Shown here piece after piece: positions 18,481-57,276 of a stretch of 64,000 bases of DNA; the stretch's first letter is position 1; every line of letters starts with the position of its first letter. Made by a program: the position numbers and the translations under genes. The notes under the pieces are model-generated. The model was not told the DNA's origin and searched no databases. It saw only the letters and a program-made list of their open reading frames with translations. The DNA comes from Firmicutes bacterium AF25-13AC (GTDB lineage: Bacteria; Bacillota; Clostridia; Lachnospirales; Lachnospiraceae): positions 104,368-168,367 of the forward strand of contig QUFP01000002.1 in assembly GCA_003478935.1 (NCBI GenBank), written 5' to 3'.

Positions 18481-18667
18481 GGGTCAAAAGGTATTTTGCC
18501 CCAACTGATATCCACGAATTGCTCCGTTGCTATGCAACTTTCGCAATTCTAAAAACATTCGGATTCGCTGATTTTCCTTGAAAATCGCTGCATCCTCATG
18601 TTTTTGCGGGTCCCAAGCTCAAAAACCTAATCGTGCAAGCACGAACGGCTTTTGGAGCTTTTGACCC
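18481..18667 (-). repeat. Composite structured repeat, copy R3 (inverted)
   Basis: A 187-base element reading on the minus strand, bounded by 10-base inverted ends GGGTCAAAAG and CTTTTGACCC. On the minus strand a hairpin with CGTGC-TTGCACG apex (rc of 18605-18660) is followed by the two-hairpin module (rc of 18514-18603) seen elsewhere in the window. It fills the gap between cls and the beta-galactosidase gene. Inner stems GATTTTC/GAAAATC and GAATTGC/GCAATTC are intact. Confidence 0.75.
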
Positions 18668-18705
18668 TGGTATCATATAAATAAATTCACGAAAGGAAAA
18701 AGAAT

Positions 18706-20730
18706 ATGTCTGTTTTATTTCCAAAAATCCCAGCTCTCCTGCACGGAGGCGACTACAATCCAGACCAGTGGCTGGATCGTCCTGATATCCTTGAGGAGGA
18801 TATTAAAATGATGAAAAAGGCAGGAGTAAACACGGCAACAGTCGGTGTATTTTCCTGGTCTGCACTTGAGCCGCAGGAAGGAAACTTCCAGTTTGGATGG
18901 CTTCATGATATCATGGATAAATTATATGAAAATGGTATTTATACTGTTTTGGCAACGCCGACAGGAGCCAGACCGGCATGGATGGATGAAAAATATCCGT
19001 CCGTTCTTCGCGTCGAGAAAGATGGACGCAGAAATCATCACAGCGGCAGACACAATCACTGCATGAGTTCTTTAGAATACCGTTCACTTGTTGAGAAGAT
19101 GGATACAAAGCTTGCGCAGGAATTTGGAAATCATCCAGGACTCATTTTATGGCATATTTCAAATGAGTTTGGAGGAGAGTGCTATTGTGAAAACTGTAAA
19201 AAGCGGTTTCAGGAATATTTAAGAGAGAAGTATCACAATAACATTGAAGAACTGAATAAGCAGTGGTGGACCTCCTTCTGGAGCCGCCGTTTTGACTCTT
19301 TTGAGCAGATAGAGCCGCCGTATGACAATGGAGAGCATTCTATTCTGGGATTAAATTTGGATTGGAAGCGTTTTAACTCCTGGAATATGAAAGATTACCT
19401 TGCATTTGAGCGCAGAATTTTAAAGAAGTATACGCCTCAGGTTCCAGCAACAGCAAACTTTATGAAGCTGTTTGAGCAGTTAGATTATGTGGATCTGGCA
19501 AAGGAGATTGATATTATTTCGTGGGATGGTTATCCGAGCTGGAATAATGATTATGAGACACCGGCAGATACTGCGGCAGAGCTTAGCTTTGATCATACAG
19601 TTATGAGAAGCTTAAAGAAGGATAAGCCATTTATGCTTATGGAGAGCACACCAAGTCTTGTTAACTGGCATTCATTTAATAAATTAAAGCGTCCGGGCAT
19701 CCTTCGCGCAAGCAGCATTCAGACAATTGGCTGTGGAAGCGATACAGTTCAGTATTTCCAGTGGAGAAAAGGTCGCGGTGCAGCGGAACAGTTCCATGGC
19801 GCTGTTGTAGATCATCTTGGAAGAGATGACACAAGAGTATTCAAAGAAGTATCAGAGGTTGGAGAAATTTTAAAGAAGTTGGCACCAGTTACAGGTTCAA
19901 AGGTAACGTCAAAGGCTGCTGTTCTTTTTGATTGGAGCAACCGCTGGGCGATTAAGGACATGCAGGGCATGGCGCGTGATACTAAAAATTATGAGAAGGA
20001 AGTACGCAAATTTTACAATATTCATTTAAAGAAGGGCATCAATGCAGATATAGTATTCCCACTTGAGGATTTGTCTTCATACAGTCTTGTTGTACTGCCA
20101 ATGTATTATGCTGTATCCAAGGAGGCTGGTGAATGGTTAAAGGAATATGTAAAAAATGGTGGAACAGTAGTGGCAACATATCTGACTGCATATGTAAATG
20201 AAAATACGCTGGCATACTTAGGCGGCTTTCCGGGCGCAGGTCTTGGAGAGGTCTTTGGTCTGTATGCTGAAGAGCTTGACACATTATATCCAACGGATTC
20301 AAATTCAGTTTTGATGAAGGATGGAAACAAGGCTTTAGTAAAGGATTACTGTGAGTTGATTAAGCTTACAGGGGCAGAAGTTCTTGGTACATACGAGAGC
20401 GATTTCTATGCAGGTATGCCGGCAGTAACTGTACACTCCTATGGAAAGGGAAAGGCATATTATATTGGAACAAGAATGGAAGAGACGGATCTGATTAAAT
20501 TCTTTACACCAATCTGGTCAGAATGCGGTATTAAGGAAAAAGAGCTTCCAGAGGGAGTAGAGTATCTGACACGTACAGCAGAAGATGGCAGCACCTTTGA
20601 TTTCTATGTCAACTATAACGCAACGCCGGCAACTGTTCAGTTGGCAAAAAATGGAACTAATCTTTTAAACGGCGAGGCAGTAAGCGGCAAGGTTGAGATC
20701 TTACCATTTAATGCAGTTGTTGTAAAGTAA
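18706..20730 (+). CDS. Beta-galactosidase, glycoside hydrolase family 42
   Basis: A 674-residue cytoplasmic GH42 enzyme that releases terminal beta-galactose from small galactosides. The TIM-barrel domain carries the acid/base Glu in ISNEFGGEC (about residue 154) and the nucleophile Glu in LMESTPS (about 312). A cysteine cluster GECYCENC matches the zinc-binding loop of many GH42 members. The trimerisation domain (about 390-600) and a small C-terminal beta domain follow. No signal peptide is present. GAAAGGAAAAAG precedes the ATG. No transporter or regulator gene for galactosides is adjacent, so its import partner is not visible here. The family is certain; natural substrate could be plant- or host-derived galactosides. 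Confidence 0.92.
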   Translation: MSVLFPKIPALLHGGDYNPDQWLDRPDILEEDIKMMKKAGVNTATVGVFSWSALEPQEGNFQFGWLHDIMDKLYENGIYTVLATPTGARPAWMDEKYPSVLRVEKDGRRNHHSGRHNHCMSSLEYRSLVEKMDTKLAQEFGNHPGLILWHISNEFGGECYCENCKKRFQEYLREKYHNNIEELNKQWWTSFWSRRFDSFEQIEPPYDNGEHSILGLNLDWKRFNSWNMKDYLAFERRILKKYTPQVPATANFMKLFEQLDYVDLAKEIDIISWDGYPSWNNDYETPADTAAELSFDHTVMRSLKKDKPFMLMESTPSLVNWHSFNKLKRPGILRASSIQTIGCGSDTVQYFQWRKGRGAAEQFHGAVVDHLGRDDTRVFKEVSEVGEILKKLAPVTGSKVTSKAAVLFDWSNRWAIKDMQGMARDTKNYEKEVRKFYNIHLKKGINADIVFPLEDLSSYSLVVLPMYYAVSKEAGEWLKEYVKNGGTVVATYLTAYVNENTLAYLGGFPGAGLGEVFGLYAEELDTLYPTDSNSVLMKDGNKALVKDYCELIKLTGAEVLGTYESDFYAGMPAVTVHSYGKGKAYYIGTRMEETDLIKFFTPIWSECGIKEKELPEGVEYLTRTAEDGSTFDFYVNYNATPATVQLAKNGTNLLNGEAVSGKVEILPFNAVVVK

Positions 20731-20749
20731 GCAATTGTGAGGTTTTGAG

Positions 20750-20977
20750 ATGAGAAAAGAATTGTTTCATATGGAGCGCGATGTCTTAAATATAGGAGAT
20801 AGTGTGACGATCATTGAGGGACAGCTTCCATTTTCGTATTACTATACAATTGTTCCGGCGTTGGCTATGTCCAAAAATTATAAGAATGCGGAGCGCATTA
20901 AGAGCCGTGAGGGCAAAGTTGTTTCAAAGGAACGAAAGGGCAGTACGTTTGAAATCTATGTTGAGTTCGAAAACTGA
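20750..20977 (+). CDS. Small conserved-looking hypothetical protein
   Basis: A 75-residue protein, 19 bases after the beta-galactosidase gene and probably on the same transcript. I do not recognise the family. It is a mixed charged and beta-prone sequence with no membrane segment or signal, containing IGDSVTIIEG near residue 16 and ending REGKVVSKERKGSTFEIYVEF, which resembles the closing strands of a small beta-barrel. A weak GAGG lies before the ATG; an alternative ATG is ten codons in. Composition and codon use match neighbouring genes. It is likely real but no function can be given. Confidence 0.6.
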   Translation: MRKELFHMERDVLNIGDSVTIIEGQLPFSYYYTIVPALAMSKNYKNAERIKSREGKVVSKERKGSTFEIYVEFEN

Positions 20978-21056
20978 TTATTTTGTAGGAATTGAACGGT
21001 GCACATAAATAAAGAGCACAAAAATTTTGCAATTATGCAGAAATTTGTTTTAGGAC

Positions 21057-21085
21057 TTGAAAAAATAATTTATCCATGGTACTAT
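21057..21085 (+). promoter_or_regulatory. Promoter for carAB
   Basis: TTGAAA (21057-21062) and TACTAT (21080-21085) are 17 bases apart. Transcription from here would give a leader of about 100 bases carrying the attenuator at 21105-21172. Confidence 0.65.
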
Positions 21086-21104
21086 ATTTTAGATAACAAC
21101 AAAA

Positions 21105-21172
21105 TTCAAGGCGAGGTACCGCCTGGATAGAGAATTGCGGACGGTGCACGTATGTGTACCGTCTTTATTTTT
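21105..21172 (+). promoter_or_regulatory. Candidate transcription attenuator upstream of carA
   Basis: A strong intrinsic terminator (GACGGTGCAC / GTGTACCGTC, GTAT loop, then TTTATTTTT to 21172) lies between the carAB promoter and carA. Just before it a smaller hairpin, AGGCG-AGGTAC-CGCCT, sits inside a weak outer stem AATTC/GAATT. Its loop (GGTAC) can pair with GTACC of the terminator arm, giving a possible switch. No PyrR-type binding loop consensus or T-box was found, so the ligand is unknown. Confidence 0.65.
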
Positions 21173-21194
21173 GGCGAAAGGGCATGGTGAACCA

Positions 21195-22274
21195 ATGAAG
21201 GCATTTCTAATTTTAGAGGATGGACATGTATTTACAGGTACAGCGATTGGCGCAGATAAAGAAATCATCAGTGAGATTGTTTTTAATACTTCAATGACAG
21301 GCTACCTAGAGGTACTTACAGATCCTTCTTATGCGGGTCAGGCTGTTGTAATGACTTATCCGCTGATCGGTAATTATGGAATCTGTTATGAGGATATGGA
21401 GTCAAAGCGTCCGTGGCCGGATGGCTATATTGTACGTGAGTTGTCCCGTATGCCAAGCAACTTCAGAAGTCAGGGAACTATTCAGGAGTTTCTTGAGAAA
21501 AATGAAATTCCAGGAATCTGTGGAATTGATACTAGAGCATTGACACAGCTTTTGCGTGAGAAGGGAACCATGAATGGTATGATTACACGCAGAGAGGATT
21601 TTGACTTGGAGGAGATCCTTCCAAAGCTTAAGGCATATTCCCCGACTGGCGTAGTAATGGCAACTACATGTAAGGAAAGAGAAGTATTGCCGGGAGATGG
21701 CTACAAGGTAGCACTTCTTGATCTTGGTGCAAAGAAAAATATTGGCGACTCACTGCATAAGAGAGGTTGTGAAGTTAACATTTATCCTGCTGACACAAAA
21801 GCAGAGGATATTCTTGCAGCAAATCCTGATGGCATTATGCTTTCAAACGGTCCTGGAGACCCGAAGGAGTGTACAGAGATCATTAAGGAGATCAAAAAGC
21901 TGTATGATTCTAACGTTCCGATTTTTGCAATCTGCCTTGGCCATCAGCTGATGGCACTGGCAAATGGTCTTGATACACATAAGATGAAATATGGTCATCG
22001 CGGCGGCAATCATCCGGTAAAGGATTTAAAGACAGGAAGAGTTTATATTACCTCTCAAAATCATGGCTATGTTGTAGATACCGACAAGCTTGATCCAAAG
22101 GTTGCTGTGCCGGCATTTGTAAATGTAAACGATGGAACAAATGAAGGTCTTTCTTATACAGGAAAGAACATTTTTACAGTTCAGTATCATCCAGAGGCTT
22201 GCCCGGGACCGCAGGACAGTGCGTACCTGTTTGACAGGTTTTTGGATATGATGGCAGCAGGAAAAAATAAATAA
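21195..22274 (+). CDS. carA: Carbamoyl-phosphate synthase small (glutaminase) subunit
   Basis: The class I glutamine amidotransferase subunit, which hydrolyses glutamine and channels ammonia to CarB for carbamoyl phosphate used in pyrimidine and arginine synthesis. The 359-residue protein has the N-terminal CPSase_sm domain (FLILEDG, FNTSMTGYLEVLTDPSYAGQ) and the amidotransferase domain with the nucleophile Cys in FAICLGHQ (about 247) and His/Glu in VQYHPEACPGP. The frame is open upstream to 21135, but that stretch is the terminator hairpin, and the family start MKAFLILEDG is at 21195. carB follows after 24 bases. Expression is likely set by the upstream attenuator. Confidence 0.95.
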   Translation: MKAFLILEDGHVFTGTAIGADKEIISEIVFNTSMTGYLEVLTDPSYAGQAVVMTYPLIGNYGICYEDMESKRPWPDGYIVRELSRMPSNFRSQGTIQEFLEKNEIPGICGIDTRALTQLLREKGTMNGMITRREDFDLEEILPKLKAYSPTGVVMATTCKEREVLPGDGYKVALLDLGAKKNIGDSLHKRGCEVNIYPADTKAEDILAANPDGIMLSNGPGDPKECTEIIKEIKKLYDSNVPIFAICLGHQLMALANGLDTHKMKYGHRGGNHPVKDLKTGRVYITSQNHGYVVDTDKLDPKVAVPAFVNVNDGTNEGLSYTGKNIFTVQYHPEACPGPQDSAYLFDRFLDMMAAGKNK

Positions 22275-22298
22275 TAGACGACAGGAGGAAACACAGCA

Positions 22299-25200
22299 AT
22301 GCCAAAGGATAGCAGTATAAAGAAGGTTCTTGTAATTGGTTCGGGTCCGATTGTCATCGGCCAGGCAGCAGAGTTTGACTATGCAGGTACACAGGCCTGC
22401 CGTTCATTAAAGGAGGAGGGTGTATCAGTTGTTCTTGTAAACTCTAATCCAGCGACGATTATGACAGATAAAAGAATTGCTGATCATGTCTATATCGAGC
22501 CGTTAACAGCAGAGGTGTTAGAGCAGATTATCGAAAAAGAGCGTCCTGACAGTGTTCTTCCGACACTGGGAGGTCAGGCTGGTCTAAATCTTGGTATGGA
22601 GCTTGCAGAGAAAGGTATTCTTGAAAAATATGGATGCCGTTTGATTGGTACTACACCAGAGACGATCAGAAAGGCAGAGGATCGTCAGGAATTTAAGGAT
22701 ACAATGGAAAAGATTGGAGAGCCTTGTGCAGCATCTAAGGTTGTTCACAACATTCCAGATGGTCTTGAATTTGCAGAACAGATCGGTTATCCAGTTGTTC
22801 TTCGTCCTGCCTACACACTTGGAGGAAGCGGCGGCGGAATCGCATATGACAAAGAGCAGATGGAGGAAATTTTAGGAAATGGTCTTCGTCTTTCCCGTGT
22901 AGGTGAGGTTTTGGTTGAGCGCTGTATCGCAGGATGGAAAGAGATTGAGTACGAGGTAATGCGTGATGGTGCAGGAAATGTAATTACAGTCTGCAACATG
23001 GAAAACATTGACCCTGTTGGTGTTCATACAGGAGATAGTATAGTTGTTGCACCGTCTCAGACGCTTGGTGATAAGGAATATCAGATGCTTCGTACCTCAG
23101 CGTTAAATATCATCAGTGAGTTAAAGATTACTGGAGGATGTAACGTTCAGTACGCATTAAAGCCAGACAGCTTTGAGTATTGTGTTATTGAGGTAAACCC
23201 GCGTGTAAGCCGTTCCTCTGCACTGGCATCAAAGGCAACAGGTTATCCGATTGCAAAGGTTGCAGCAAAGATTGCACTTGGCTACACTCTTGATGAGATT
23301 CCGAATGCCATCACAAAGAAAACCTTCGCAAGTTTCGAGCCAATGTTAGACTACTGCGTTGTCAAGATTCCGAGACTGCCATTTGATAAGTTTATCAGTG
23401 CATCAAGAAAGCTGACAACACAGATGAAGGCAACAGGAGAAGTTATGGCAATCTGTGATAACTTCGAGGGTGGTCTTATGAAGGCACTTCGTTCTCTTGA
23501 GCAGCATGTTGACAGCCTTGTAACAGATGAGTACAGCAAGCTGACGGCAGATGAGTTTGAGGAGCAGATGAGTATTGTCGATGACCGCAGAATCTTCCGC
23601 ATTGCAGAGGCAATCCGCAGAGGCTACAGCTATGAAAAGATCCATCAGATCACAATGATTGATCCGTGGTTTATTGACAAGATTGCTATTCTTGTAGAGA
23701 TGGAGACACGTCTGAAAACAGAAGAACTTACTCCTGATCTGTTAAAGGAAGCAAAGCGTATTGAATTCCCGGATAAGTTAATCGCATCCTTAAGCGGCAA
23801 GACTGAGGATCAGGTAAAGAAGATGCGCTATGACAATGGCATCACAGCAGCCTTTAAGATGGTTGATACATGTGCAGCAGAGTTTGCAGCAACTACACCA
23901 TATTATTATTCTGTTTTTGGAAGCGAGAATGAGGCGAAAAAGACAGAGGGAAGAAAGAAGGTTCTTGTTCTTGGTTCTGGACCTATCCGTATCGGACAGG
24001 GTATTGAGTTTGACTTCTGTTCTGTTCATTGTACGTGGGCATTTGCAAAGGAAGGCTATGAGACTGTTATCATCAATAATAACCCTGAAACAGTTTCAAC
24101 CGATTTCGATATTGCAGATAAGCTGTATTTTGAGCCACTGACACCAGAAGATGTGGAGAGTATTGTAAATCTGGAGCATCCAGACGGCGCTGTTGTTCAG
24201 TTTGGCGGTCAGACAGCAATTAAGCTGACTGAGGCCTTAATGAAGATGGGAGTTCCGATTCTTGGAACGAGCGCAAAAGACGTTGATGCGGCAGAGGATC
24301 GTGAGCTGTTTGATCAGATTCTTCGCGAGACAAAGATTCCGCGCGCATCAGGCGGCACTGTATTTACAGTAGAAGAGGCATTAAAGGTTGCGCATGAGCT
24401 TGGTTATCCAGTTCTTGTTCGTCCGTCATACGTTCTTGGCGGTCAGGGTATGCAGATTGCAATCAACGATGAGGATATTACGCAGTATATTGGTATTATC
24501 AATCGTTATGCACAAGAGCATCCGATTCTTGTAGATAAATATCTGATGGGTAAGGAGCTTGAGGTTGATGCTGTATGTGATGGACAGGATATTTTGATTC
24601 CTGGTATCATGGAGCACATTGAGCGTGCAGGTATCCACTCTGGTGATAGTATTTCTGTTTATCCGGCAAAGAGCATAAGTCAGAAGACAAAAGAAACTAT
24701 CGTTGAGTATACAAAGCGTCTGGCAAGAGCGCTTCATGTAAGAGGTCTGATTAATATTCAGTTTATCGAGTATCAGGGAGCTGTTTATGTAATCGAGGTT
24801 AATCCGCGTTCTTCACGTACCGTACCGTATATCAGTAAGGTAACAGGAATCCCGATTGTTGATCTGGCAACACAGGTCATCATTGGAAATACAATTCGTG
24901 GTCTTGGTTATGAGCCAGGTCTGCAAAAGGAAGCAGATTATTATGCAATTAAGATGCCGGTATTCTCCTTTGAGAAGCTGCGCGGAGCTGATATTGCACT
25001 TGGACCAGAGATGAAGTCAACAGGTGAGTGTCTTGGAATCGGCAAGACCTTTAACGAGGCACTTTATAAGGCTTTCCTTGGTGCAGGCTTCCATCTTCCA
25101 AAGTATAAGAAGATGATTATTACAGTTCGCGATGATGATAAGGAAGAAATCGTAGATATTGCAAGACGTTTCAAGGCAATTGGCTACGAGATCTATGCGA

Positions 25201-25493
25201 CAAAGGGAACAGGAGCAGCACTTCGTGCAAAGGGAGTGGATACACTTTATATAAGCAAGCTGGAGCAGGATTCACCGAATCTTCTTGATTTGATTCTTGG
25301 CCATCAGATTGATCTTGTCATTGATACACCAACACAGGGCGCAGAGCACAGCCATGATGGTTTTATTATCCGTAGAAATGCAATCGAGACAGGTGTAAAT
25401 GTACTGACAGCAATCGATACAGCAAAGGCATTGATTACTAGTCTTGAGAATAGAGAAGAGCAGCTGACACTGATCGATATCGCAACCATTTGA
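22299..25493 (+). CDS. carB: Carbamoyl-phosphate synthase large subunit
   Basis: The 1064-residue synthetase subunit, which makes carbamoyl phosphate from bicarbonate, ammonia and two ATP. Both halves are present: the N-terminal ATP-grasp half (KKVLVIGSGPIVIGQAAEFD, residues 1-400), the oligomerisation region (400-550), the C-terminal ATP-grasp half (VLVLGSGPIRIGQGIEFD, about 550-930) and the MGS-like allosteric domain (about 930-1064). Length is normal for the family. GGAGGA lies just upstream of the ATG and carA precedes it, so the two are one operon. The stop codon is followed immediately by a structured repeat flanked by a 14-base direct repeat. Confidence 0.97.
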   Translation: MPKDSSIKKVLVIGSGPIVIGQAAEFDYAGTQACRSLKEEGVSVVLVNSNPATIMTDKRIADHVYIEPLTAEVLEQIIEKERPDSVLPTLGGQAGLNLGMELAEKGILEKYGCRLIGTTPETIRKAEDRQEFKDTMEKIGEPCAASKVVHNIPDGLEFAEQIGYPVVLRPAYTLGGSGGGIAYDKEQMEEILGNGLRLSRVGEVLVERCIAGWKEIEYEVMRDGAGNVITVCNMENIDPVGVHTGDSIVVAPSQTLGDKEYQMLRTSALNIISELKITGGCNVQYALKPDSFEYCVIEVNPRVSRSSALASKATGYPIAKVAAKIALGYTLDEIPNAITKKTFASFEPMLDYCVVKIPRLPFDKFISASRKLTTQMKATGEVMAICDNFEGGLMKALRSLEQHVDSLVTDEYSKLTADEFEEQMSIVDDRRIFRIAEAIRRGYSYEKIHQITMIDPWFIDKIAILVEMETRLKTEELTPDLLKEAKRIEFPDKLIASLSGKTEDQVKKMRYDNGITAAFKMVDTCAAEFAATTPYYYSVFGSENEAKKTEGRKKVLVLGSGPIRIGQGIEFDFCSVHCTWAFAKEGYETVIINNNPETVSTDFDIADKLYFEPLTPEDVESIVNLEHPDGAVVQFGGQTAIKLTEALMKMGVPILGTSAKDVDAAEDRELFDQILRETKIPRASGGTVFTVEEALKVAHELGYPVLVRPSYVLGGQGMQIAINDEDITQYIGIINRYAQEHPILVDKYLMGKELEVDAVCDGQDILIPGIMEHIERAGIHSGDSISVYPAKSISQKTKETIVEYTKRLARALHVRGLINIQFIEYQGAVYVIEVNPRSSRTVPYISKVTGIPIVDLATQVIIGNTIRGLGYEPGLQKEADYYAIKMPVFSFEKLRGADIALGPEMKSTGECLGIGKTFNEALYKAFLGAGFHLPKYKKMIITVRDDDKEEIVDIARRFKAIGYEIYATKGTGAALRAKGVDTLYISKLEQDSPNLLDLILGHQIDLVIDTPTQGAEHSHDGFIIRRNAIETGVNVLTAIDTAKALITSLENREEQLTLIDIATI

Positions 25494-25494
25494 G

Positions 25495-25651
25495 ACACCA
25501 GGGGACAAAAGCCAAATCATGAGGATGCAGCGATTTCCAAAGGAAATCAGCGAATCCGAATGATTTGCAGAATTGCGAGAGATGCGAAGCAGCGGAGCAA
25601 TTCGTAGGGTGTCGAAAAAGTAAACAGCAAGAAAACAACACCAGGGGACAA
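25495..25651 (+). repeat. Two-hairpin repeat copy R1 flanked by a 14-bp direct repeat
   Basis: The two-hairpin module at 25513-25608 (outer AAATCAT/ATGATTT, inner GATTTCC/GGAAATC, then GAATTGC/GCAATTC) sits between identical copies of ACACCAGGGGACAA at 25495-25508 and 25638-25651. The second copy is part of the carB terminator, so the module looks inserted at that site. Confidence 0.75.
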
Positions 25652-25670: not shown

Positions 25671-25694
25671 TGCGTTTTGAAAGGAGAAAATTTA

Positions 25695-31141: not shown

Positions 31142-31199
31142 TACAGTGAATAAACAGACATCTGTGATATTTTTGCATCATACAATAAAAAAAGCTTCG

Positions 31200-31451
31200 A
31201 AAAGGCTTTGAACGGAAAGAGTACTGTCGCAGGAAATGTCAGAGAGAGCAGGTCCAGGCTGAAAACCTGCTTCGTGGAGTGAGACAGGAAGTGCATCCGG
31301 GAGCTGGCTGTGTGAATAAAGTAGCATGGCACGCTGGTTTGCGTTATCACCGGCTGTGTATACAGCATAAGTGTCAGCATCTATGCTCTCACAGGAGTGG
31401 AACCGCGGAAAATTTTTCGTCTCCTGGCTTTTGCAGGGGACGTTATTTTTT
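31200..31451 (+). promoter_or_regulatory. T-box riboswitch, cysteine specific, upstream of cysE-cysS
   Basis: The leader shows GGAAAGAGTA at the start of stem I, an AGAGAGAG bulge region, a specifier loop GAAGTGCATCC whose codon TGC (31292-31294) is Cys, and the T-box GTGGAACCGCGG (31397-31408). A terminator follows: CGTCTCCTG pairs with CAGGGGACG (31418-31442) before TTATTTTTT. Uncharged tRNA-Cys binding would favour the antiterminator and expression of serine acetyltransferase and cysteinyl-tRNA synthetase. Confidence 0.92.
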
Positions 31452-31458
31452 GATACAA

Positions 31459-31612
31459 GGTTTCCAAAGTTAAAACAGTTCGTGCTTGCACGAAACTGTT
31501 TTTGACCTTGGAAACCGTACAAGAATGAGAATGCAGCGATTTCCGAAGGAAATCAGCGAATTCGAATGCTTGTAGACTTGCGAGAACTGCGGACAAAGAT
31601 TTTCGAAGCAAG
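31459..31612 (+). repeat. Composite structured repeat copy R7 in the cysE leader
   Basis: Between the T-box terminator and the cysE start lies a strong hairpin (GGTTTCCAA/TTGGAAACC outer, AAAACAGTT / AACTGTTTT inner, CGTG-CTTG-CACG apex; 31459-31516). A diverged two-hairpin module follows (31518-31612; GATTTCC/GGAAATC intact). The last part runs into the cysE ribosome binding region. Confidence 0.65.
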
Positions 31613-31623
31613 AAGGGAGTGGC

Positions 31624-32310
31624 ATGAGAATCGTTCAATATGTACTTGATGAAATTTCGCTGATCAGAGAACGGGATCCGGCAATTAATTCACCGGCAGA
31701 GGTATTTTTGTATCCTTGTTTCTGGGCAGTACTTTGGTATCGTCTTGCGCACAGGCTTTATCTGAAAAAAAGATATTTTGCAGCGCGTATGATCTCTCAG
31801 TGTACAGCACGAAGAACTGGAATCGAGATCCACCCAGGAGCTAAGATCGGAAAAGGATTTTTTATTGATCATGGTCATGGTGTTGTGATTGGAGAGACAG
31901 CAGAGATTGGTGACAATGTTACCTTATATCAAGGTGTTACACTTGGCGGTACAGGAAAAGAGCATGGAAAACGCCATCCGACAATTGGAAATAATGTTAT
32001 GATCAGTGCAGGCGCGAAGGTTCTCGGTTCCATTACAATTGGAGACAACTGTAAAATCGGTGCTGGAAGTGTTGTACTAAAACCAGTTCCGCCCAATTCT
32101 ACGGTGGTAGGAGTTCCAGGACGTGTTGTCAAACGTGACAATGTACGATTGCCGCAAACTGATCTTGATCAGGTGCACATGCCAGATCCGGTGCTTGCTG
32201 ATATTGAACAGCTTAAAAAGCAGTACGCTAAGCTGTATCAAATGGTTGAGAAATCACAGATGAAAACGAAAAGAAGAAAGGAAAAAACATGGAAATCTAC
32301 AATACATTAA
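31624..32310 (+). CDS. cysE: Serine O-acetyltransferase
   Basis: The first enzyme of cysteine synthesis, making O-acetylserine from serine and acetyl-CoA. The 228-residue protein is the short EpsC-like form, with a helical N-terminus (residues 1-60) and a left-handed beta-helix of hexapeptide repeats (about 65-190: [45 protein letters not shown]). The catalytic His is in [15 protein letters not shown] site lies before the ATG. Its 3' end overlaps cysS by 22 bases, which lengthens the tail with basic residues. It is under the Cys T-box, as expected. No cysteine synthase gene is adjacent. Confidence 0.94.
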
Positions 32311-40993: not shown

Positions 40994-40997
40994 TAAA

Positions 40998-41155
40998 ACA
41001 GCTCATTCTAGCACGCGTTCAGAATAAAACATGCTTGCATGTTTTTTCTGAAGGTTGTGCTAGAAAGGAGCGCCGCCTCATAAGCAAAATAGCTGCGAAG
41101 TAGCGAGTAAGCCCGATAGGGCGATTTTGCGCATGAGACAGCGCGGGAGAGCTGT
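40998..41155 (+). repeat. Multi-branch structured module B, copy 1 (after groEL)
   Basis: A closing stem ACAGCTC/GAGCTGT encloses two arms. Arm 1: CTAGCAC/GTGCTAG, then GTTCAGA/TCTGAA, capped by AACATG-CTTG-CATGTT (41008-41065). Arm 2: CTCAT-GCAAAAT / ATTTTGC-ATGAG with small inner hairpins GCTGC-GAA-GTAGC and GCCC-GATA-GGGC (41084-41136). A near-identical copy lies at 57043-57201. It begins two bases after the groEL stop codon. Confidence 0.8.
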
Positions 41156-41167
41156 ATACTAGGTTAC

Positions 41168-41216
41168 AAAAAGACAGGGAGTACCCGTGCTTGCACGTGG
41201 TACTCCCTGTCTTTTT
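41168..41216 (+). terminator. Strong hairpin and probable groESL terminator
   Basis: AAAAAGACAGGGAGTAC pairs with GTACTCCCTGTCTTTTT around CCGTG-CTTG-CACG. The U-rich 3' side makes it a likely bidirectional terminator. It also matches the hairpin placed before other two-hairpin repeat copies. Confidence 0.8.
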
Positions 41217-41226
41217 AGGAACCGCC

Positions 41227-41316
41227 CAATCATGAGGAAGAAGCAATTTGCGAAGCAAATTAGCGGATTCCGAATGATTGTAGGATTGCGAGAGCGAAGC
41301 GAAGCAATCCGTAGGT
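41227..41316 (+). repeat. Two-hairpin repeat copy R5
   Basis: Outer CAATCAT/ATGATTG, inner AATTTGC-GAA-GCAAATT, then a second hairpin GGATTGC/GCAATCC. Each stem differs from copies R1-R3 on both sides in a pairing-preserving way. Confidence 0.8.
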
Positions 41317-41341: not shown

Positions 41342-41400
41342 CGCCCAATCATGAGAATGTAGTGATTTGCTCTGCAAATCGACAGATTCCGCCCATTCCT
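41342..41400 (+). repeat. Two-hairpin repeat copy R6 (3' truncated)
   Basis: Begins CAATCATGAGAATGTAGTG and keeps the first inner stem GATTTGC-TCT-GCAAATC, then loses homology after CCCATTCC. The second hairpin is missing. 41401-41530 beyond it holds only AT-rich DNA and the RBS of the next gene. Confidence 0.65.
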
Positions 41401-42063: not shown

Positions 42064-43726
<1,663 letters not shown>

Positions 43727-43758
43727 TATCAATTCATAAAAAAAAGAAGAAAACATAC

Positions 43759-46449: not shown

Positions 46450-46450
46450 T

Positions 46451-49031: not shown

Positions 49032-49087
49032 GCAGTCAGAACAATGTTTTGCTGCAAAAAAACGAAGGATAAGACAGGATAAAGAAC

Positions 49088-50214: not shown

Positions 50215-50246
50215 TAGATCAGTACGTGTAAAAAGGAGATCAAAAT

Positions 50247-51095: not shown

Positions 51096-51144
51096 AAAGC
51101 AAAAAGTACAGCTGATTTCTCATGACAAAAAGAAAGGGGCAGCT

Positions 51145-52905
51145 ATGAAAAGACAAATGAAATGGGCGGCAGCATCATTGATATGCAGTCTTATTATACA
51201 GTGTATGCCGGCAGCGGCAGATCAAAAGACACAGGAAGCATTTGATGCTTATTTAGACAGAATTTATGCACAATGGATCAGTGAAAATCCATTTCAAATT
51301 CACTTTTATCTTGAGCATCCAGAAAATTATGGCATTGAACTAAGTTCATATACATTGATGGATTACAGTGAGTATGATGAGGCCGCAATTGAAGTATATG
51401 AAAAGCAGCAGGAGGAAGACCTTAAGGAATTGAGGTCATTTGACAAGACACAACTGACAAGACAACAGCAGATCTTGTATGATAAGCTTATGGAGCAGAT
51501 TGATCTGAATGAAAAGTATGCGGACATGTTTGACTTTTCTTCACTTATTGGCGGGTCAAATGGAATTGTCAATTCTCTTGCTAATAATTTTCAAAATTAT
51601 TTGTTTATTGAGAAGAAGGATGTAGAAGAATATTTAAAATTTTTACAGGATATTCCGAATTATATTGATTATGCAATTGATTATACAAATGAGTATGCAG
51701 AATATGATCTAGTCCCGTCAAAGTATATGCTGCAGGTTAATAGAGAGGCAATTGATGAGCTTGTCGGCAAAAACACAAATGTTTTTATTGAAGGTTTCGA
51801 AAAAAAGCTTGATGAGGCTGCATTTCTTTCTGATGAAGAACGTGCGGATTTTAAAACAAAAAACAAAGAACTTGTAGAGCAGATTGTAAATCCGGCATTT
51901 GCAAAGCTTAAACAGCAGCTTTCACAGTGGCAGGAAACATTTGACGAGTGGGAAGGCTTTGCTGAATATGCTGAGGGCGAGGATTATTATAATTATCTAA
52001 TTGAAACATATGCAGGTGTTTCTATGGATGCCGAGGAATTGTTTGATTATATGTATGACAAGCTTGATGATTGTGAGGAACGATTCTCAGAGCTGTTAGA
52101 GGATGATGAAATATATGAAGGCTATATGAATTCAGAGTATGGCTTTGAAAAAAGAACACCATCTGAGATTTTAGATGCGCTTCGTGTTTATACAAAGGAA
52201 AATTTTGCACCGATTGCAGATCCTGGTTATCAGGTAGAGGAGCTTCCAACTGCTCTTCGAAGCGATGGCGTACTGGCATATTACCTGACACCTCAGGAGG
52301 ATCATGACGATATTAATCAGATTTGTTTAAATCCAGATGCGCTTGGCACGGATCTTGGAGTTTTGTATGAAACGCTGGCGCATGAAGGTTATCCTGGTCA
52401 TCTGTACTTTTTTAATTATGTAAAACAGCAGGGTTGGCATCCGATCAATTTCTTTGTGTCAAATATTGGCTTTGAGGAGGGATGGGCAGAATATGCAGCG
52501 CGCCTTTCACTAGATAGCTGGGGACTTGATCCAGATATGATGGAAGTTATTTTTCTGGATCAAGAGTTTAGTTATCTGTTAATGGGTTTGTCTGATATTG
52601 GAATCAATTATGGCGGATGGACAGTTGATGATGTATATGATCTGTGGGAAACTTACTTCTATCTTGACAGCGCAGAAGATGTGCGTGATGTATATGATGC
52701 GTGTATGGCAGAGCCAGGTACGATTCTTAGCTATTCAATCGGCTATTATCAGATATGCGATCTGGAAGAAGAGGTAAAGGAGATGCTTGGTGAATCATTT
52801 GATCATAATGAATTTGTGACAGAGCTTTTGTCAGTTGGCGGTGCATCATTTGATATTACAAGGTCATATATCATGGAGTGGGCTAACGAAAAGTTACACG
52901 GATAA
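51145..52905 (+). CDS. DUF885 family protein, exported, metallopeptidase-like
   Basis: A 586-residue protein with an N-terminal signal peptide (KRQMKWAAASLICSLIIQCMPAAAD, likely cut after AAA). The rest is helical and acidic and matches DUF885, thought to be zinc carboxypeptidase-like. Zinc-site candidates are HEGYPGH (about 413-419) and EEGWAEYAA (about 446), the family's conserved pair. AAAGGGG precedes the ATG. No lipobox was found, so it may be secreted or cleaved and wall-retained. Substrate unknown; peptides or peptidoglycan fragments are possible. It is the last gene before a new promoter. Confidence 0.85.
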   Translation: MKRQMKWAAASLICSLIIQCMPAAADQKTQEAFDAYLDRIYAQWISENPFQIHFYLEHPENYGIELSSYTLMDYSEYDEAAIEVYEKQQEEDLKELRSFDKTQLTRQQQILYDKLMEQIDLNEKYADMFDFSSLIGGSNGIVNSLANNFQNYLFIEKKDVEEYLKFLQDIPNYIDYAIDYTNEYAEYDLVPSKYMLQVNREAIDELVGKNTNVFIEGFEKKLDEAAFLSDEERADFKTKNKELVEQIVNPAFAKLKQQLSQWQETFDEWEGFAEYAEGEDYYNYLIETYAGVSMDAEELFDYMYDKLDDCEERFSELLEDDEIYEGYMNSEYGFEKRTPSEILDALRVYTKENFAPIADPGYQVEELPTALRSDGVLAYYLTPQEDHDDINQICLNPDALGTDLGVLYETLAHEGYPGHLYFFNYVKQQGWHPINFFVSNIGFEEGWAEYAARLSLDSWGLDPDMMEVIFLDQEFSYLLMGLSDIGINYGGWTVDDVYDLWETYFYLDSAEDVRDVYDACMAEPGTILSYSIGYYQICDLEEEVKEMLGESFDHNEFVTELLSVGGASFDITRSYIMEWANEKLHG

Positions 52906-52953
52906 TCCAATATCTATAGCCAAGCCACCTTCGGGACTTGCCGCAAAAAAGCC

Positions 52954-52983
52954 TTGACAAACAGAAACGTAAGTGTTACACTT
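52954..52983 (+). promoter_or_regulatory. Promoter with overlapping palindromic operator before the XRE gene
   Basis: TTGACA (52954-52959) and TACACT (52977-52982), 17-base spacer. A perfect inverted repeat AAGTGT-T-ACACTT (52971-52983) covers the -10, as expected for an autoregulated repressor site. Confidence 0.75.
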
Positions 52984-53036
52984 GCAATATACGAAAGAAA
53001 AAAGCAAAAATAACAATGAAAAGAGGAATACAAAAA

Positions 53037-53303
53037 ATGGAAGAAAAAGAGACTCGCTTTGACCGTTCAACAGAGCGCAGTGAATGTTTGATTGCCGAGT
53101 ATAAGAAACTTCGTAAGGATGAGGCAAAGATGAGCCAGAAATCACTTGAGGATATCACAGGTGTTCCGCGTCAGATGATTATCCGTTACGAAAAAGGAAA
53201 AATTATGCCGACCGTTCGTGCTATGAATCGTCTTCTTGAGCCGCTTGGCTATCAGCTTGGAATTGTTCCGCTGAAAAAAGAAGACAGCGAGGATACACAG
53301 TAA
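53037..53303 (+). CDS. XRE-family helix-turn-helix regulator
   Basis: An 88-residue DNA-binding protein consisting of little more than one HTH domain: AEYKKLRKDEAKMSQKSLEDITGVPRQMIIRYEKGKIMPTVRAMNRLLEPLG, with the recognition helix around PRQMIIRYE. The ATG at 53037 has AAGAGGA at proper spacing; the frame is open to 52938 but that stretch covers the promoter. A 13-base palindrome on its own -10 suggests autorepression. The downstream exported protein gene may be a target but has a separate start region. No toxin partner is adjacent. Confidence 0.85.
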   Translation: MEEKETRFDRSTERSECLIAEYKKLRKDEAKMSQKSLEDITGVPRQMIIRYEKGKIMPTVRAMNRLLEPLGYQLGIVPLKKEDSEDTQ

Positions 53304-53335
53304 TTACAGGCATAGGAAATTTATATACATAAGAT

Positions 53336-53400
53336 AAAAAGCATCTAGCAAAACTAACTGATCCGTATAAAAACGGTGGTTGTCTGCAGATGCTTTTTTG
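53336..53400 (+). terminator. Probable terminator after the XRE gene
   Basis: AAAAAGCATCT pairs with AGATGCTTTTTT across a loop of about 40 bases with its own small pairing. The next gene's RBS region begins just beyond. Confidence 0.6.
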
Positions 53401-53445
53401 GTACATACAAAGGAGGAGAAAAAAGAAAAAGAAAAGGAGAATTTT

Positions 53446-54597
53446 ATGGTACTAAAACAAAGAAAAACAGTATTGATTGTATCGGCACTGTTGACAGCAC
53501 AAATGGTCATGCAGGAAGCAGTACAGGCATTTGAAGAAGTCTCGCAGCCTGAAGTGCAAATTACAGAAACAGCACAGGAAGGTGAACTTGTCAGTCAGTC
53601 AGATGGGGATGATATCTGGACGGAAACTTATACATATGTGTCTGATACAAACACGCCTCATGCTTTTGCAGAAACAGTTGAAAAACAAGGCGATTGGTAT
53701 GCGATGAAGGATGTAGAATATCAGGTGACAGAGCTGACGACACAGCTGATACAAAAAAGCGAAGCAATGTGGGCATATGCATCGTATGAGCCGGAGCAGG
53801 AAATAGAAGAAGCAGGAATCCACTATACATTGACATCACTTTCCAAAGATGAATGGATGCAGACAGATCGTCTAAAAAATGTGACGAAATACTTAAGCTG
53901 TCAGGAAGGACAGGAAGTTTCGGAAACGCTTGATGTAGAGACAGCAGATGAAGTGACAGGAGAAGCTCTTTATGGAACAATTGAAAGAATTGAGTTAAAA
54001 GAGGATGGCGCAGATTGGAAGGAAGGTGCTCTTGAGGAATGGGATATTTACAGCTGGAATGGAGAGTCTTGGGTTTATCAAAGAAACGATGAATGTTTTT
54101 ACGCGACAGAAGAAAGTCCATGGTTTGAAGGCTATGAGGCGGTATTTATGCAGGAGCATCATTTAGATGGCGTATTTAATCAGATCACATCAATAGAATG
54201 GTATGGAGATGGCTGGCAGGACGAGGAAGGAAACTGGAAGAGAAGTGTCAGGATAACAGGAAACAAAATGGTACCGCGATATCAGGCAATTTATTCAGGA
54301 GACGTGGCGCAGCCTGATCTGCCAATGGTGTGTTATAAAGCGCAGTATACGTCTGATCCGCAGGGCTATCTTATAACAGCAGATGTAACATATGAAAAAA
54401 TGCAAGAAGAAGCAGTGCAGGAAGAAGAAAATGCAGATGAGTCAATATTAAAGTCAATATCAGAAGAACTTATAAAAACATTGCAGCAGAATAAAACAAA
54501 TGAAAAATTCTGGTATTTACTGTTAGCGGCACTTATGGCTGTCAGTGTGGGCTTACAGACAGCAGTGATTTTTGTGCTGGCATTTCGTGAGCGGTAA
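53446..54597 (+). CDS. Exported, membrane-anchored protein of unknown function
   Basis: A 383-residue protein with an N-terminal signal peptide (KTVLIVSALLTAQMVMQEAVQA, cut about residue 27), an acidic extracellular region rich in Glu, Trp and Tyr, and a C-terminal transmembrane helix (FWYLLLAALMAVSVGLQTAVIF) followed by a short basic end (RER). The layout is that of a type I single-pass surface protein. I do not recognise the ectodomain; it has no cell-wall sorting LPxTG. GAAAAGGAGAA precedes ATG 53446, preferred over the upstream frame. It is followed at once by the tRNA cluster promoter. Confidence 0.75.
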   Translation: MVLKQRKTVLIVSALLTAQMVMQEAVQAFEEVSQPEVQITETAQEGELVSQSDGDDIWTETYTYVSDTNTPHAFAETVEKQGDWYAMKDVEYQVTELTTQLIQKSEAMWAYASYEPEQEIEEAGIHYTLTSLSKDEWMQTDRLKNVTKYLSCQEGQEVSETLDVETADEVTGEALYGTIERIELKEDGADWKEGALEEWDIYSWNGESWVYQRNDECFYATEESPWFEGYEAVFMQEHHLDGVFNQITSIEWYGDGWQDEEGNWKRSVRITGNKMVPRYQAIYSGDVAQPDLPMVCYKAQYTSDPQGYLITADVTYEKMQEEAVQEEENADESILKSISEELIKTLQQNKTNEKFWYLLLAALMAVSVGLQTAVIFVLAFRER

Positions 54598-54626
54598 CAT
54601 AAAAATTAAAAAAAATAAAAAAGTGG

Positions 54627-54655
54627 TTGACAACAGCCTTGCAGTGTGATATTAT
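54627..54655 (+). promoter_or_regulatory. Promoter of the tRNA-Glu/Pro/Glu cluster
   Basis: TTGACA (54627-54632) and TATTAT (54650-54655), spacer 17, about 15 bases before tRNA-Glu. An overlapping TATAAT at 54653 has a less usual 20-base spacer. Confidence 0.8.
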
Positions 54656-54669
54656 AATCAGCGTTGCAA

Positions 54670-54741
54670 GGCTTGTTGGTCAAGGGGTTAAGACGTCGCC
54701 CTCTCACGGCGAAAACAGGAGTTCGATTCTCCTACAAGCTG
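54670..54741 (+). tRNA. tRNA-Glu (anticodon CTC), copy 1
   Basis: A 72-base cloverleaf with acceptor GGCTTGT/ACAAGCT (first pair G-U), anticodon stem TCGCC/GGCGA with loop CTCTCAC (CTC), T-arm AGGAGTTCGATTCTCCT and discriminator G. Identical to the copy at 54851. Confidence 0.93.
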
Positions 54742-54748
54742 CTTAGCT

Positions 54749-54822
54749 CGAGGTGTGGCTCAGTTTGGTAGAGCGCTGCGTTCGGGACGCAGAGGTCGCA
54801 AGTTCAAATCTTGTCGCCTCGA
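54749..54822 (+). tRNA. tRNA-Pro (anticodon CGG)
   Basis: A 74-base cloverleaf with acceptor CGAGGTG/CGCCTCG, D-arm GGCTCAGTTTGGTAGAG, anticodon stem CTGCG/CGCAG with loop TTCGGGA (CGG), T-arm GCAAGTTCAAATCTTGT, discriminator A. Confidence 0.95.
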
Positions 54823-54850
54823 TTGCCGATAGGCAAAGAAAAATAAATAT

Positions 54851-54922
54851 GGCTTGTTGGTCAAGGGGTTAAGACGTCGCCCTCTCACGGCGAAAACAGG
54901 AGTTCGATTCTCCTACAAGCTG
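54851..54922 (+). tRNA. tRNA-Glu (anticodon CTC), copy 2
   Basis: Sequence identical to the first tRNA-Glu over all 72 bases, separated from it by tRNA-Pro and 28 bases of spacer. Same transcript, ended by the terminator below. Confidence 0.93.
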
Positions 54923-54925
54923 TTG

Positions 54926-54953
54926 TGCTCTGCAGTTGCAGAGCATTTTTTTT
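54926..54953 (+). terminator. Terminator of the tRNA cluster
   Basis: TGCTCTGC-AGTT-GCAGAGCA, a perfect 8-bp stem, followed by eight T residues. Confidence 0.95.
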
Positions 54954-55039
54954 AAGAATAAAACCAAACATAAGTTCATAAAACAAGTATAAATGAGTGG
55001 AAAGTTCCAATTTGCGGGACATCCCATTCGGAAAACAGC

Positions 55040-55069
55040 TTGACAGAAAGAATCACTCAATGGTATAAA
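55040..55069 (+). promoter_or_regulatory. Promoter of the topoisomerase operon
   Basis: TTGACA (55040-55045) and TATAAA (55064-55069), spacer 18, about 50 bases before the start codon. Confidence 0.8.
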
Positions 55070-55121
55070 ATTAACGGACATAAGAGATGATTGAGATGAT
55101 GAGATAAGGAAGGAAATATAG

Positions 55122-57038
55122 ATGGCAAAAAAAGACGCATACAATGCAGACAGTATTACGGTGCTTGAGGGACTTGAAGCAGTCCGCAAGCGTCCAGGTA
55201 TGTATATAGGAGGCGTATCTGTCTCTGGTTTAAACCATTTGGTATATGAGATTGTAGACAATGCCGTTGATGAGCATTTGGCAGGTTTTTGTAATCATAT
55301 AGAGGTGACATTGGAAAATGATGGATCTGTTACGGTAAAGGACAGTGGCCGTGGTATTCCTGTTGATCGTCACAAGCTTGGTGTATCTGCAGAGCGTGTT
55401 ATTTTTACGACGCTGCATGCAGGAGGTAAATTTGATAACACAGCATATAAAACAAGCGGAGGACTTCACGGTGTAGGATCTTCCGTTGTCAATGCACTTT
55501 CTGAATATTTGGAGATCCATATCGCAAAAGACGGATGGGTTTATTATGATAAATATGAGAGAGGAACGCCGGTAATTGAGCTAAAGGACGGCCTTCTCCC
55601 GAAAAAAGGAAGAACAAAGGAAACTGGAACATGGATTAATTTTAAGCCAGATGCTGAAATTTTTGAGCGAACACGTTTTTCAGCACAGTCAATTATGAGT
55701 CGTCTGCATGAGACAACTTATTTAAATCCAGGTCTGGAAATTATCTTTAATAACAAGCGAAGCGGTGAGGAGGAGAGTATTACCTATTATGAGCCAGATG
55801 GAATTTCTGCTTATATCCGCGAGCTGAATAAGGGCAAGGAAACAGTTCATGATATTATCACCTATACAGGAATGAGTGATGGAATAGAGGTAACAGTTGC
55901 ATTCCAGTTTGTGGATCTGTTTGAAGAAAAGCTTCTTAGCTATTGCAACAATATTTACAATACAGACGGCGGAACACATCTGACTGGTTTTAAGACAAAA
56001 TTCACGCAGGAAATAAATAGCTATGCAAAAGAGCTTGGCATTTTAAAGGATCCTGCAAAATTTACAGGACCAGATACGCGCTGCGGTATGACTGCTATTA
56101 TTGCAATTAAGCATCCAGATCCTATTTTTGAGGGTCAGACAAAGACAAAGCTTGGAAGCCAGGATGCTTCAAAGGCAGTAATTAACGTAACAGGAGAGCA
56201 GCTAGAGCTTTACTTTGATAAGCATGTTGAGGTGCTAAAGAGTATTATTGGCTGTGCAGAAAAATCTGCAAAGATCAGAAAGGCAGAGGAAAAGGCAAAG
56301 TCTAATCTGCTGACAAAGCAAAAATATTCATTTGATGGAAATGGAAAGCTTGCAAACTGTGAGAGCAAAGACAGCAGTCTTTGTGAGATTTTTATCGTAG
56401 AGGGAGATTCAGCAGGCGGTTCGGCAAAGACTGCCAGAGACAGACGTTATCAGGCGATTCTTCCAATCAGAGGAAAAATCTTAAATGTAGAAAAGGCATC
56501 TATTGACAAGGTGCTTGCAAATGCAGAAATTAAATCCATGGTTCAGGCATTTAACTGTGGTTTCTCAGAAGGATATGGAAACGACTTTGATATTTCTAAG
56601 CTTCGCTATGACAAAATTATTATCATGGCCGATGCCGATGTCGATGGTGAGCATATCAGTACGCTTTTAATGACATTTTTCTACCGCTTTATGCCGGAAC
56701 TGATTCAGGAGGGTCATGTTTATATCGCAATGCCTCCGCTTTATAAGGCAGTGCCAAAGCGCGGTCAGGAACAGTATCTTTATGATGACATTGCGCTTGA
56801 TAAATACAGAAAAACTCATAAAGATTTCACTTTGCAGCGTTATAAGGGACTTGGAGAGATGGATGCGTCCCAGCTGTGGGAGACAACATTAAACCCAGAG
56901 AGCCGTTGCTTAAAGCGTGTCGAAATCGAAGATGCCAGACTTGCAAATGAGATGACAGAGCTTTTGATGGGAAGCGATGTTGAGCCGAGAAGAGAATTTA
57001 TCCATAAGCATGGCCGCGAAGCACAGCTTGATATATGA
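55122..57038 (+). CDS. parE: Type II DNA topoisomerase subunit B (ParE/GyrB family)
   Basis: The ATPase subunit of a type II topoisomerase, 638 residues. The GHKL ATP site shows EIVDNAVDEH, GRGIPVD and GGLHGVGSSVVNALS (about 40-125). A transducer domain follows, then the TOPRIM domain with EGDSAGG (about 426) and DADVDGEHI (about 504), ending with the conserved QRYKGLGEM and GREAQLDI. It is followed 284 bases later by the A subunit. Because the partner lacks a visible GyrA-box, I call the pair topoisomerase IV-like (decatenation), but a second gyrase-type enzyme is possible; the dnaA-linked gyrase would lie elsewhere. GGAAGGAAAT precedes the ATG. Confidence 0.88.
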   Translation: MAKKDAYNADSITVLEGLEAVRKRPGMYIGGVSVSGLNHLVYEIVDNAVDEHLAGFCNHIEVTLENDGSVTVKDSGRGIPVDRHKLGVSAERVIFTTLHAGGKFDNTAYKTSGGLHGVGSSVVNALSEYLEIHIAKDGWVYYDKYERGTPVIELKDGLLPKKGRTKETGTWINFKPDAEIFERTRFSAQSIMSRLHETTYLNPGLEIIFNNKRSGEEESITYYEPDGISAYIRELNKGKETVHDIITYTGMSDGIEVTVAFQFVDLFEEKLLSYCNNIYNTDGGTHLTGFKTKFTQEINSYAKELGILKDPAKFTGPDTRCGMTAIIAIKHPDPIFEGQTKTKLGSQDASKAVINVTGEQLELYFDKHVEVLKSIIGCAEKSAKIRKAEEKAKSNLLTKQKYSFDGNGKLANCESKDSSLCEIFIVEGDSAGGSAKTARDRRYQAILPIRGKILNVEKASIDKVLANAEIKSMVQAFNCGFSEGYGNDFDISKLRYDKIIIMADADVDGEHISTLLMTFFYRFMPELIQEGHVYIAMPPLYKAVPKRGQEQYLYDDIALDKYRKTHKDFTLQRYKGLGEMDASQLWETTLNPESRCLKRVEIEDARLANEMTELLMGSDVEPRREFIHKHGREAQLDI

Positions 57039-57042
57039 TTTA

Positions 57043-57201
57043 ACAGCTCATTCTAGCACAGTCGTTCAGAATAAAACATGCTTGCATGTTTTTTCTGAAT
57101 GGTGTGCTAGAAAGGAGCGCCGCCTCATAAGCAAAACAGCTGCGAAGCAGAGATTAAGCCCGACAGGGCGGTTTTGCGCATGATAGGCGCGGATGGGCTG
57201 T
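57043..57201 (+). repeat. Multi-branch structured module B, copy 2 (between parE and parC)
   Basis: Nearly the same sequence as 40998-41155. Closing stem ACAGCTC/GGGCTGT (one G-U for A-U), arm 1 CTAGCAC/GTGCTAG capped by ACATG-CTTG-CATGT, arm 2 GCAAAAC/GTTTTGC where copy 1 has GCAAAAT/ATTTTGC, and GCCC-GACA-GGGC. It starts five bases after the parE stop codon. Confidence 0.8.
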
Positions 57202-57209
57202 TTCTTACT

Positions 57210-57276
57210 AAAATTAGCGAATCCGAAGGTTTTTTAGAATTGCGAGAGTTGCGTAGCAACGGAGCAATTCGTAGGC
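57210..57276 (+). repeat. Two-hairpin repeat copy R4 (5' truncated)
   Basis: Only the end of hairpin one (AATTAGCGAATCCGAA) and the full second hairpin GAATTGC/GCAATTC with TTGC-GTA-GCAA remain. It ends about 45 bases before the parC start codon. Confidence 0.75.

Follow-up and report, generated by a model that had tools for sequence, protein, structure and literature searches.

In a 64,000-nucleotide stretch of DNA from Firmicutes bacterium AF25-13AC, a member of the Lachnospiraceae (contig QUFP01000002.1, positions 104,368 to 168,367; here called the window), a folded repeat occurs several times, and the question it raises is whether what recurs is a structured RNA or a mobile element. The repeat is Rfam family RF01699 (Clostridiales-1 RNA), with which it shares both sequence and fold; the family is already catalogued, and no function is assigned to it there. 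Literature searches on RF01699 and Clostridiales-1 found no paper on its function or mobility. The analysis described here indicates that RF01699 is very probably the body of a miniature inverted-repeat transposable element (MITE), a non-autonomous DNA transposon in which a closing stem and three hairpins lie between terminal inverted repeats (TIRs). This conclusion is drawn because of the TIRs, target-site duplications (TSDs), two empty sites, large and uneven numbers of copies, derivatives with internal deletions, and cores arrayed in tandem. The Rfam model stops short of the right TIR, and the ends of the element, its TSDs, and its mobility thus lie outside the model.

A preliminary description of the window had recognised a dispersed two-hairpin repeat, had placed it in no named family, and had itself named an Rfam match as grounds for giving up that view. 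The repeat is real, and the family has a name: in a gathering search, five full copies match RF01699 above the Rfam cut-off of 48 bits (covariance-model score), with E-values from 5.1e-13 to 4.3e-28 and scores of up to 124.9 bits. (A sixth match, 57048-57280, scores 48.0 bits, the cut-off itself; it comes from an E-value search and is absent from the gathering list.) The first description of the outer stem, the inner stem, and the second hairpin is correct, but the full unit is longer, the copies as originally delimited being its 3' two-thirds; the first hairpin and the closing stem, TGATACC/GGTATCA, had been missed. The full unit thus has a closing stem, a long first hairpin whose loop is GTGCTTGCAC or similar, a two-stem second hairpin, and a third hairpin. 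Pieces of 149-150 nt from three window copies fold better than 200 of 200 shuffles (z of -6.3, -4.4, and -9.4).

Element ends and target-site duplications

The only complete element among the window copies has the following parts.

18473..18675, minus strand: complete MITE with both TIRs and a TSD; RF01699 core at 18506-18675, 124.9 bits
18658-18675, minus strand: left TIR, TGATACCAGGGTCAAAAG
18473-18490, minus strand: right TIR, TGAGGCGGGGGTCAAAAG
18467..18472, no strand: TSD TATAAA (as read on the plus strand), low-coordinate side
18676..18681, no strand: TSD TATAAA, high-coordinate side

In general, the left end of the MITE is TGATNYYNGGGTCAAAAG and the right end, CTTTTGACCCCNNCATCA, lies 16-36 nt past the Rfam match; in most copies the right end repeats the left end in inverted orientation, and just beyond it the 5-6 bp that precede the element occur again. 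The TIRs are of the 18-bp type, the whole MITE is about 183-212 bp long, and most of the subfamilies that were folded have a further hairpin at the right end.

The right TIR is present in 66 of 106 copies in a first set (60 + 40 copies from genomes, mostly high-scoring, and 6 from the window). An exact TSD of at least 4 bp flanks 53 of these 66 copies (40 of 5 bp, 11 of 6, one of 4, and one of 7); among the other 13, a contig end truncates L108 and the script misread the flank of L063. When left flanks were paired with the right flanks of other copies as a shuffled control, TSD-like matches appeared at about 4%. A second set of 40 copies, drawn from 39 genomes and in most cases the top-scoring copy there, yielded the right TIR in 25, of which 18 have a TSD of 5-6 bp. 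Combined, the right TIR is found in 91 of 146 copies and an exact TSD in 71 of these 91, the duplications being mostly 5-6 bp long and AT-rich.

Empty sites, copy number, and derivatives

Insertion can also be seen by comparing a 19.8-kb stretch of genome G054 with three relatives of the same genus (G311, G312, and G313). Two sites were inspected, and both are empty in G312: the element at L330:17527-17712 is absent there, as is a double insertion at L330:2614-2990, and in each case the flanks meet within a few bases. (The double insertion consists of two G054 copies head to tail, with TTAATA between them.)

Copy number is large and uneven. The neighbouring gene product DUF6106 led to 16 related loci; of their 16 genomes, 12 have RF01699 matches (11 above the cut-off), the number per genome ranging from 0 to 52. 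A survey of 299 genomes of the family to which G009 belongs, in which at most nine candidates were scored per genome, matched RF01699 in 161 (130 above the cut-off). Seven chosen copy-bearing genomes hold at least 107, at least 91, 31, at least 95, 15, 20, and 10 copies; the three highest counts (G054, G283, and G209) are lower bounds, 137 candidates having been scored. A search of plasmids gave no RF01699 match. Phage records gave eight partial matches, in unannotated faecal 'Bacteriophage sp.' records, and the 97 stretches with the TIR pattern in viral contigs are taken to be mostly chance.

Derivatives of several kinds accompany the complete elements. There are palindromes of 36-38 bp built from both MITE ends, deletion forms 66-266 bp in length, and tandem arrays in which one intact left end is followed by several cores (L344:19041-19674, L324:287-843, and L352:7854-8256); in the arrays of G283 the later units carry a different first hairpin. 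The earlier suggestion of a MITE-like mobile repeat is supported by the TIRs, the TSDs, the two empty sites, and the copy number.

The same observations bear on a stationary alternative, in which RF01699 would be a non-coding RNA gene or a cis-acting RNA, and its copies paralogous small RNAs (sRNAs) kept for their RNA function. Rfam lists the family in this way, as Gene; sRNA, rather than as the body of a mobile element, and the strong covariation, the conserved purine loops, the greater stability of the plus-strand fold, the sense bias among co-directional genes, and the copy at 31451-31624, which lies between a T-box and a start codon, are all in keeping with it. Such an RNA is not expected to have TSDs and TIRs, empty sites, or 0 to 107 copies per genome, and the RF01699 stems show no preference for G-U within genomes. 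Furthermore, in the available text of Weinberg et al. 2010 (PMC2864571), where the Clostridiales-1 motif was first described, it is marked 'y' for RNA (probably RNA) but 'n' for cis-regulatory (probably not). On this balance a stationary RNA is improbable. A second suggestion of the preliminary description, that of a 3'-end RNA element, lacks support as a rule, since 32 copies lie in divergent and 12 in convergent gene intervals (both sets).

Observations against the MITE reading and the search for a helper transposase

A number of observations weigh against the conclusion that RF01699 is the body of a MITE. A recognisable right end is absent from 55 of the 146 copies, that is, from 40 of the first 106 (20 of them being all the G009 copies) and from 15 of the further 40; within the window it is not recognisable in five of six copies. 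The G009 copies (L037-L056) are RF01699 cores with sharp but different ends. Neither G311 nor G313 gave clean empty sites: the right flank of the first site is unmatched in these genomes, and some 100 nt of different sequence occupy the second. Finally, the searches for a transposase with matching ends were negative. No transposase with the MITE TIRs was found in up to 30 PF01609 loci (10 genomes) or in up to 30 loci of IS3 family NF033516 (16 genomes; many more IS3 matches exist); up to 30 IstB PF01695 loci (16 genomes) gave no convincing TIRs, and in three Mu_C PF09299 loci (20 genomes) no MITE TIRs bracket the transposase. A Pfam scan of 22 open reading frames (ORFs) between paired TIRs at 13 loci likewise yielded no transposase; these were the larger ORFs of the listed pairs, and the Y1 loci were not scanned for TGAT ends.

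The pairs in question come from a scan of 166 loci (1.38 Mb), which gave 30 inverted TIR pairs 0.7-6 kb apart. Among the 16 of these 30 that were listed, three have matching flanks: L125 (TTATAA), L361 (TATCA), and L342 (ATTA). Of the 22 ORFs, 20 have other domains and two have none; the L125 interval encodes a sulphite-reductase-like protein and an AraC protein and the L361 interval a solute-binding protein, and none of the 22 is a transposase. Isolated single good TIR matches occur at PF01609 loci L249 and L254, and single matches at IS3 loci L267, L279, L286, and L289; none brackets a transposase. In genome G283, apparently a single contig, the RF01699 copies number at least 91; DDE_Tnp_1 has no match there and the IS3 matches are all weak, and the helper may be lost or unusual.

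TIRs combined with TSDs of 5-6 bp suggest a DDE enzyme. Such a transposase, encoded by an insertion sequence that is resident or has been lost, would bind the TGATNYYNGGGTCAAAAG ends in trans, cut the target with a stagger of 5-6 nt, and then insert the element.

Covariation and the role of the folded core

For the folded core, alignment by MAFFT across subfamilies gave a useless consensus fold, and the work was done per subfamily and with the covariance model. In a 63-row alignment (fitted to the covariance model used), both sides change in 49 of 50 pairs, and 96.5% of cells are paired, compared with 72.9% when shuffled and at most 43.9% when slid. Covariation of the closing stem and the three hairpins is thus massive, and pairing is conserved across genomes. 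The preliminary description, which took covariation to mean that the fold is preserved, nevertheless overreaches, since within genomes G-U and A-C changes are equally frequent.

This count covered seven groups with 135 copies in all, of which a sequence profile had supplied 86 and the Rfam score 49; it gave 71 distinct changes from a Watson-Crick consensus pair to G-U and 69 to A-C; in the three genomes with profile-found copies the ratio is 37:38. A control with 17 distinct tRNAs from the window plus 56 loci gave 24:4. In addition, the RF01699 stems are nearly all Watson-Crick, G-U making up 2.6% of pairs compared with 6.7% in tRNAs, and 16 consensus or representative folds have 27 G-U pairs on the plus strand and 29 on the minus strand (for pairs inside helices of the 16 sequences the counts are 9:3, p = 0.15). 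These figures speak against a role of the core as RNA. Since G-U equals A-C within genomes, unlike in tRNAs, covariation alone does not show an RNA function.

The same figures support an alternative concerning the core, which leaves the status of the element as a MITE unaffected: the hairpins would matter as DNA alone, as a cruciform or as a structure bound by transposase, or the arms would be kept complementary by template-switch (quasi-palindrome) correction, any RNA being incidental. In few-copy genomes plus the window the G-U:A-C ratio, 16:11, is also in line with this alternative, which is a serious possibility. What it does not readily explain is the polarity of the strands. Unpaired positions are 72% purine, with an internal-loop GA/GA at 95-100%, and in all of 16 sequences the plus strand gives the more stable fold (in another comparison one group, with flanks included, was slightly reversed); moreover, where the neighbouring genes are co-directional, the copy is in sense in 36 of 53 cases (p = 0.013; both sets). 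Some G-U counts point the same way: 47:19 cells over six subfamilies (consensus G-U pairs included), and, in a one-per-genome set of 62 rows from 57 sources, 77:26 cells or 32:17 distinct states (p = 0.04). The copies of the latter set were chosen by covariance score and its counts are not relied on, the excess coming mainly from the best-scoring copies of copy-rich genomes (61:15).

Together with the changes on both sides of 49 of 50 pairs, these features argue for an RNA role. The folded core of the MITE might, tentatively, function as RNA when transcription reads through it, the benefit lying at the level of the element; it could, for instance, help a neighbouring gene to tolerate a new insertion, individual copies then decaying neutrally. 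Taken together, the strong covariation of the stems and the equality of G-U and A-C within genomes are compatible with a core that acts as RNA or as DNA. The conclusion is that pairing within the core has been maintained in the lineage that transposes, while single copies drift.

Other copies in the window and their genomic setting

The remaining copies and fragments of RF01699 in the window are these.

25491..25614, plus strand: RF01699 copy without the first hairpin; Rfam match 25493-25614, 68.7 bits
29109..29174, plus strand: probable short derivative; left TIR TAATATCAGGGTCAAAAG with 1 mismatch, right end degenerate (by eye), core deleted
31451..31624, plus strand: divergent RF01699 copy, 78.4 bits
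41154..41320, plus strand: RF01699 copy directly 3' of the sister element, 116.1 bits
41342..41400, plus strand: probable degenerate RF01699 fragment; 51 bp with 76% identity to 41222-41272, E 9e-6
43563..43731, plus strand: RF01699 copy at the 3' end of guaB, 121.2 bits; right TIR not recognised
57202..57280, plus strand: 3' part of an RF01699 copy, fused behind the sister element; the Rfam alignment 57048-57280 spans both

Two of these had been described as truncated copies. The one at 57210-57276 is indeed the 3' part of the 48.0-bit match, whose 5' part belongs to another element (the sister repeat, below); the one at 41342-41400 resembles RF01699, but an Rfam search of it gave no match. 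In the copy at 25493-25614, 59 model positions are replaced by 8 nt, with loss of the first hairpin, and the carB ORF (22299-25493) has the first TGA of this copy as its stop. The copy at 31451-31624 sits between a T-box leader (31199-31427) and a hexapeptide-repeat ORF (31624-32310); its third hairpin is degraded, and its end overlaps the ATG of that ORF. The window ORF for guaB (IMP dehydrogenase), 42100-43641, is 513 codons long and extends into the element at 43563, the repeat contributing about 25 of these codons; in seven of seven relatives translated, the guaB stop lies 2-3 codons past a shared NYS/NYT. From about residue 525 of groEL to the start of DUF6106 there are 585 nt in the window, compared with 168-336 nt in six of seven relatives (the other, L011, has 603 nt).

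Of 86 copies in three genomes, 72 fall between genes (each tandem unit counting as one); a cruder, open-ended ORF caller, applied to a second set (57 copies, 1-kb flanks), showed an ORF overlap for 20. Two further dispersed repeats were seen in G054, at L330:3636-3837 (about 200 bp) and L330:1047-1182 (about 135 bp), both repeated many times in G054 and in its relatives of the same genus.

The G009 variant and a sister repeat

In 19 of the 20 G009 copies, which were aligned with one left out, the left end is TTTAC|TATAAAAGT and there are no inverted repeats at the ends; the right end is mostly a hairpin, GCCCGCAAAGCGGGC + ATGAAAGTTTA, five copies having a second variant. Such ends are reminiscent of IS200/IS605. 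They suggest an element of the REP/RAYT or IS200/IS605 type, moved as single-stranded DNA by a Y1 transposase, and Y1 transposases are in fact present in 8 of 12 genomes. Y1 elements, however, are not known to make TSDs, whereas the main type of RF01699 element has both TSDs and TIRs, and the ends of the G009 repeat are not shared by the five loci fetched from eleven G009 Y1 matches. For RF01699 as a whole this explanation is highly improbable.

The element adjoining two of the RF01699 copies in the window is a second structured repeat.

40997..41156, plus strand: sister structured repeat, with a closing stem, a CTTG-loop hairpin, and a hairpin with ATAAG...GCGCATGA
57041..57202, plus strand: second copy of the sister repeat, 89% identical to 40997-41156

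Neither window copy has an Rfam match. A BLAST survey, in which two candidates were scored per genome, found relatives in 12 of 299 genomes, mostly over a core of 70 nt, two of the matches being short. Full units with inverted ends, such as CAGTTCAG/CTGAACTG, are present at nine of ten fetched loci (picked by eye), and these ends differ in sequence between copies, again by eye. When eight of the loci were aligned with the two window copies, RNAalifold kept 19 pairs and did not recover the closing stem. A model of the sister repeat found no copy in 1.06 Mb beyond the window and the BLAST-found loci; it weakly matches the RF01699 copy at 41156-41288 (E 9e-4). A CTTG-loop hairpin and an ATGAG...CGAAT hairpin are common to both repeats; the uncatalogued repeat is apparently a sister of RF01699.

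Relation to known systems and significance

REP/BIME and IS200/IS605-derived repeats are hairpin repeats in intergenic DNA; the main RF01699 type differs from them in its TSDs and TIRs, and the G009 variant alone resembles them at its ends. RUP and Correia elements have TA as their TSD, whereas that of the RF01699 element is of 5-6 bp; in addition, its core is conserved across many genomes. Compared by description, and as far as the available accounts of them go, RUP and Correia MITEs are otherwise similar: short, bounded by TIRs, high in copy number, strongly base-paired, and lacking a transposase gene (PMC3049150, PMC10969869). The BOX elements of Streptococcus pneumoniae, as portrayed in the available part of one of these sources, are dispersed and folded repeats of composite build, in which the number of internal modules varies, and one of them joins two T-box riboswitches (PMC3049150). 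The likeness to BOX is again one of description, not of sequence; the copy at 31451-31624 likewise follows a T-box, but a single unit of the RF01699 element consists of one core, with three hairpins and a closing stem of its own, flanked by TIRs.

With these findings an unexplained Rfam family becomes a mobile element that has defined ends and a testable insertion chemistry. They also serve as a warning that the stems of a repeat may covary strongly without selection at the level of RNA; a count of G-U versus A-C within genomes separates the RF01699 stems from tRNAs. The analysis exposes, in addition, an uncatalogued sister repeat. A further idea, which is unlikely as it stands, is that the folded core is itself the selfish unit: an RNA module consisting of an AUGAG...CGAAU tandem-GA hairpin and a CUUG-loop hairpin would ride on at least two mobile chassis (the TIR/TSD type and, in G009, an IS200/IS605-like type) and recur in the sister family with ends of its own, CAGTTCAG...CTGAACTG. 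If true, these RNA-bearing mobile elements would form a superfamily whose constant feature is the RNA rather than the transposase.

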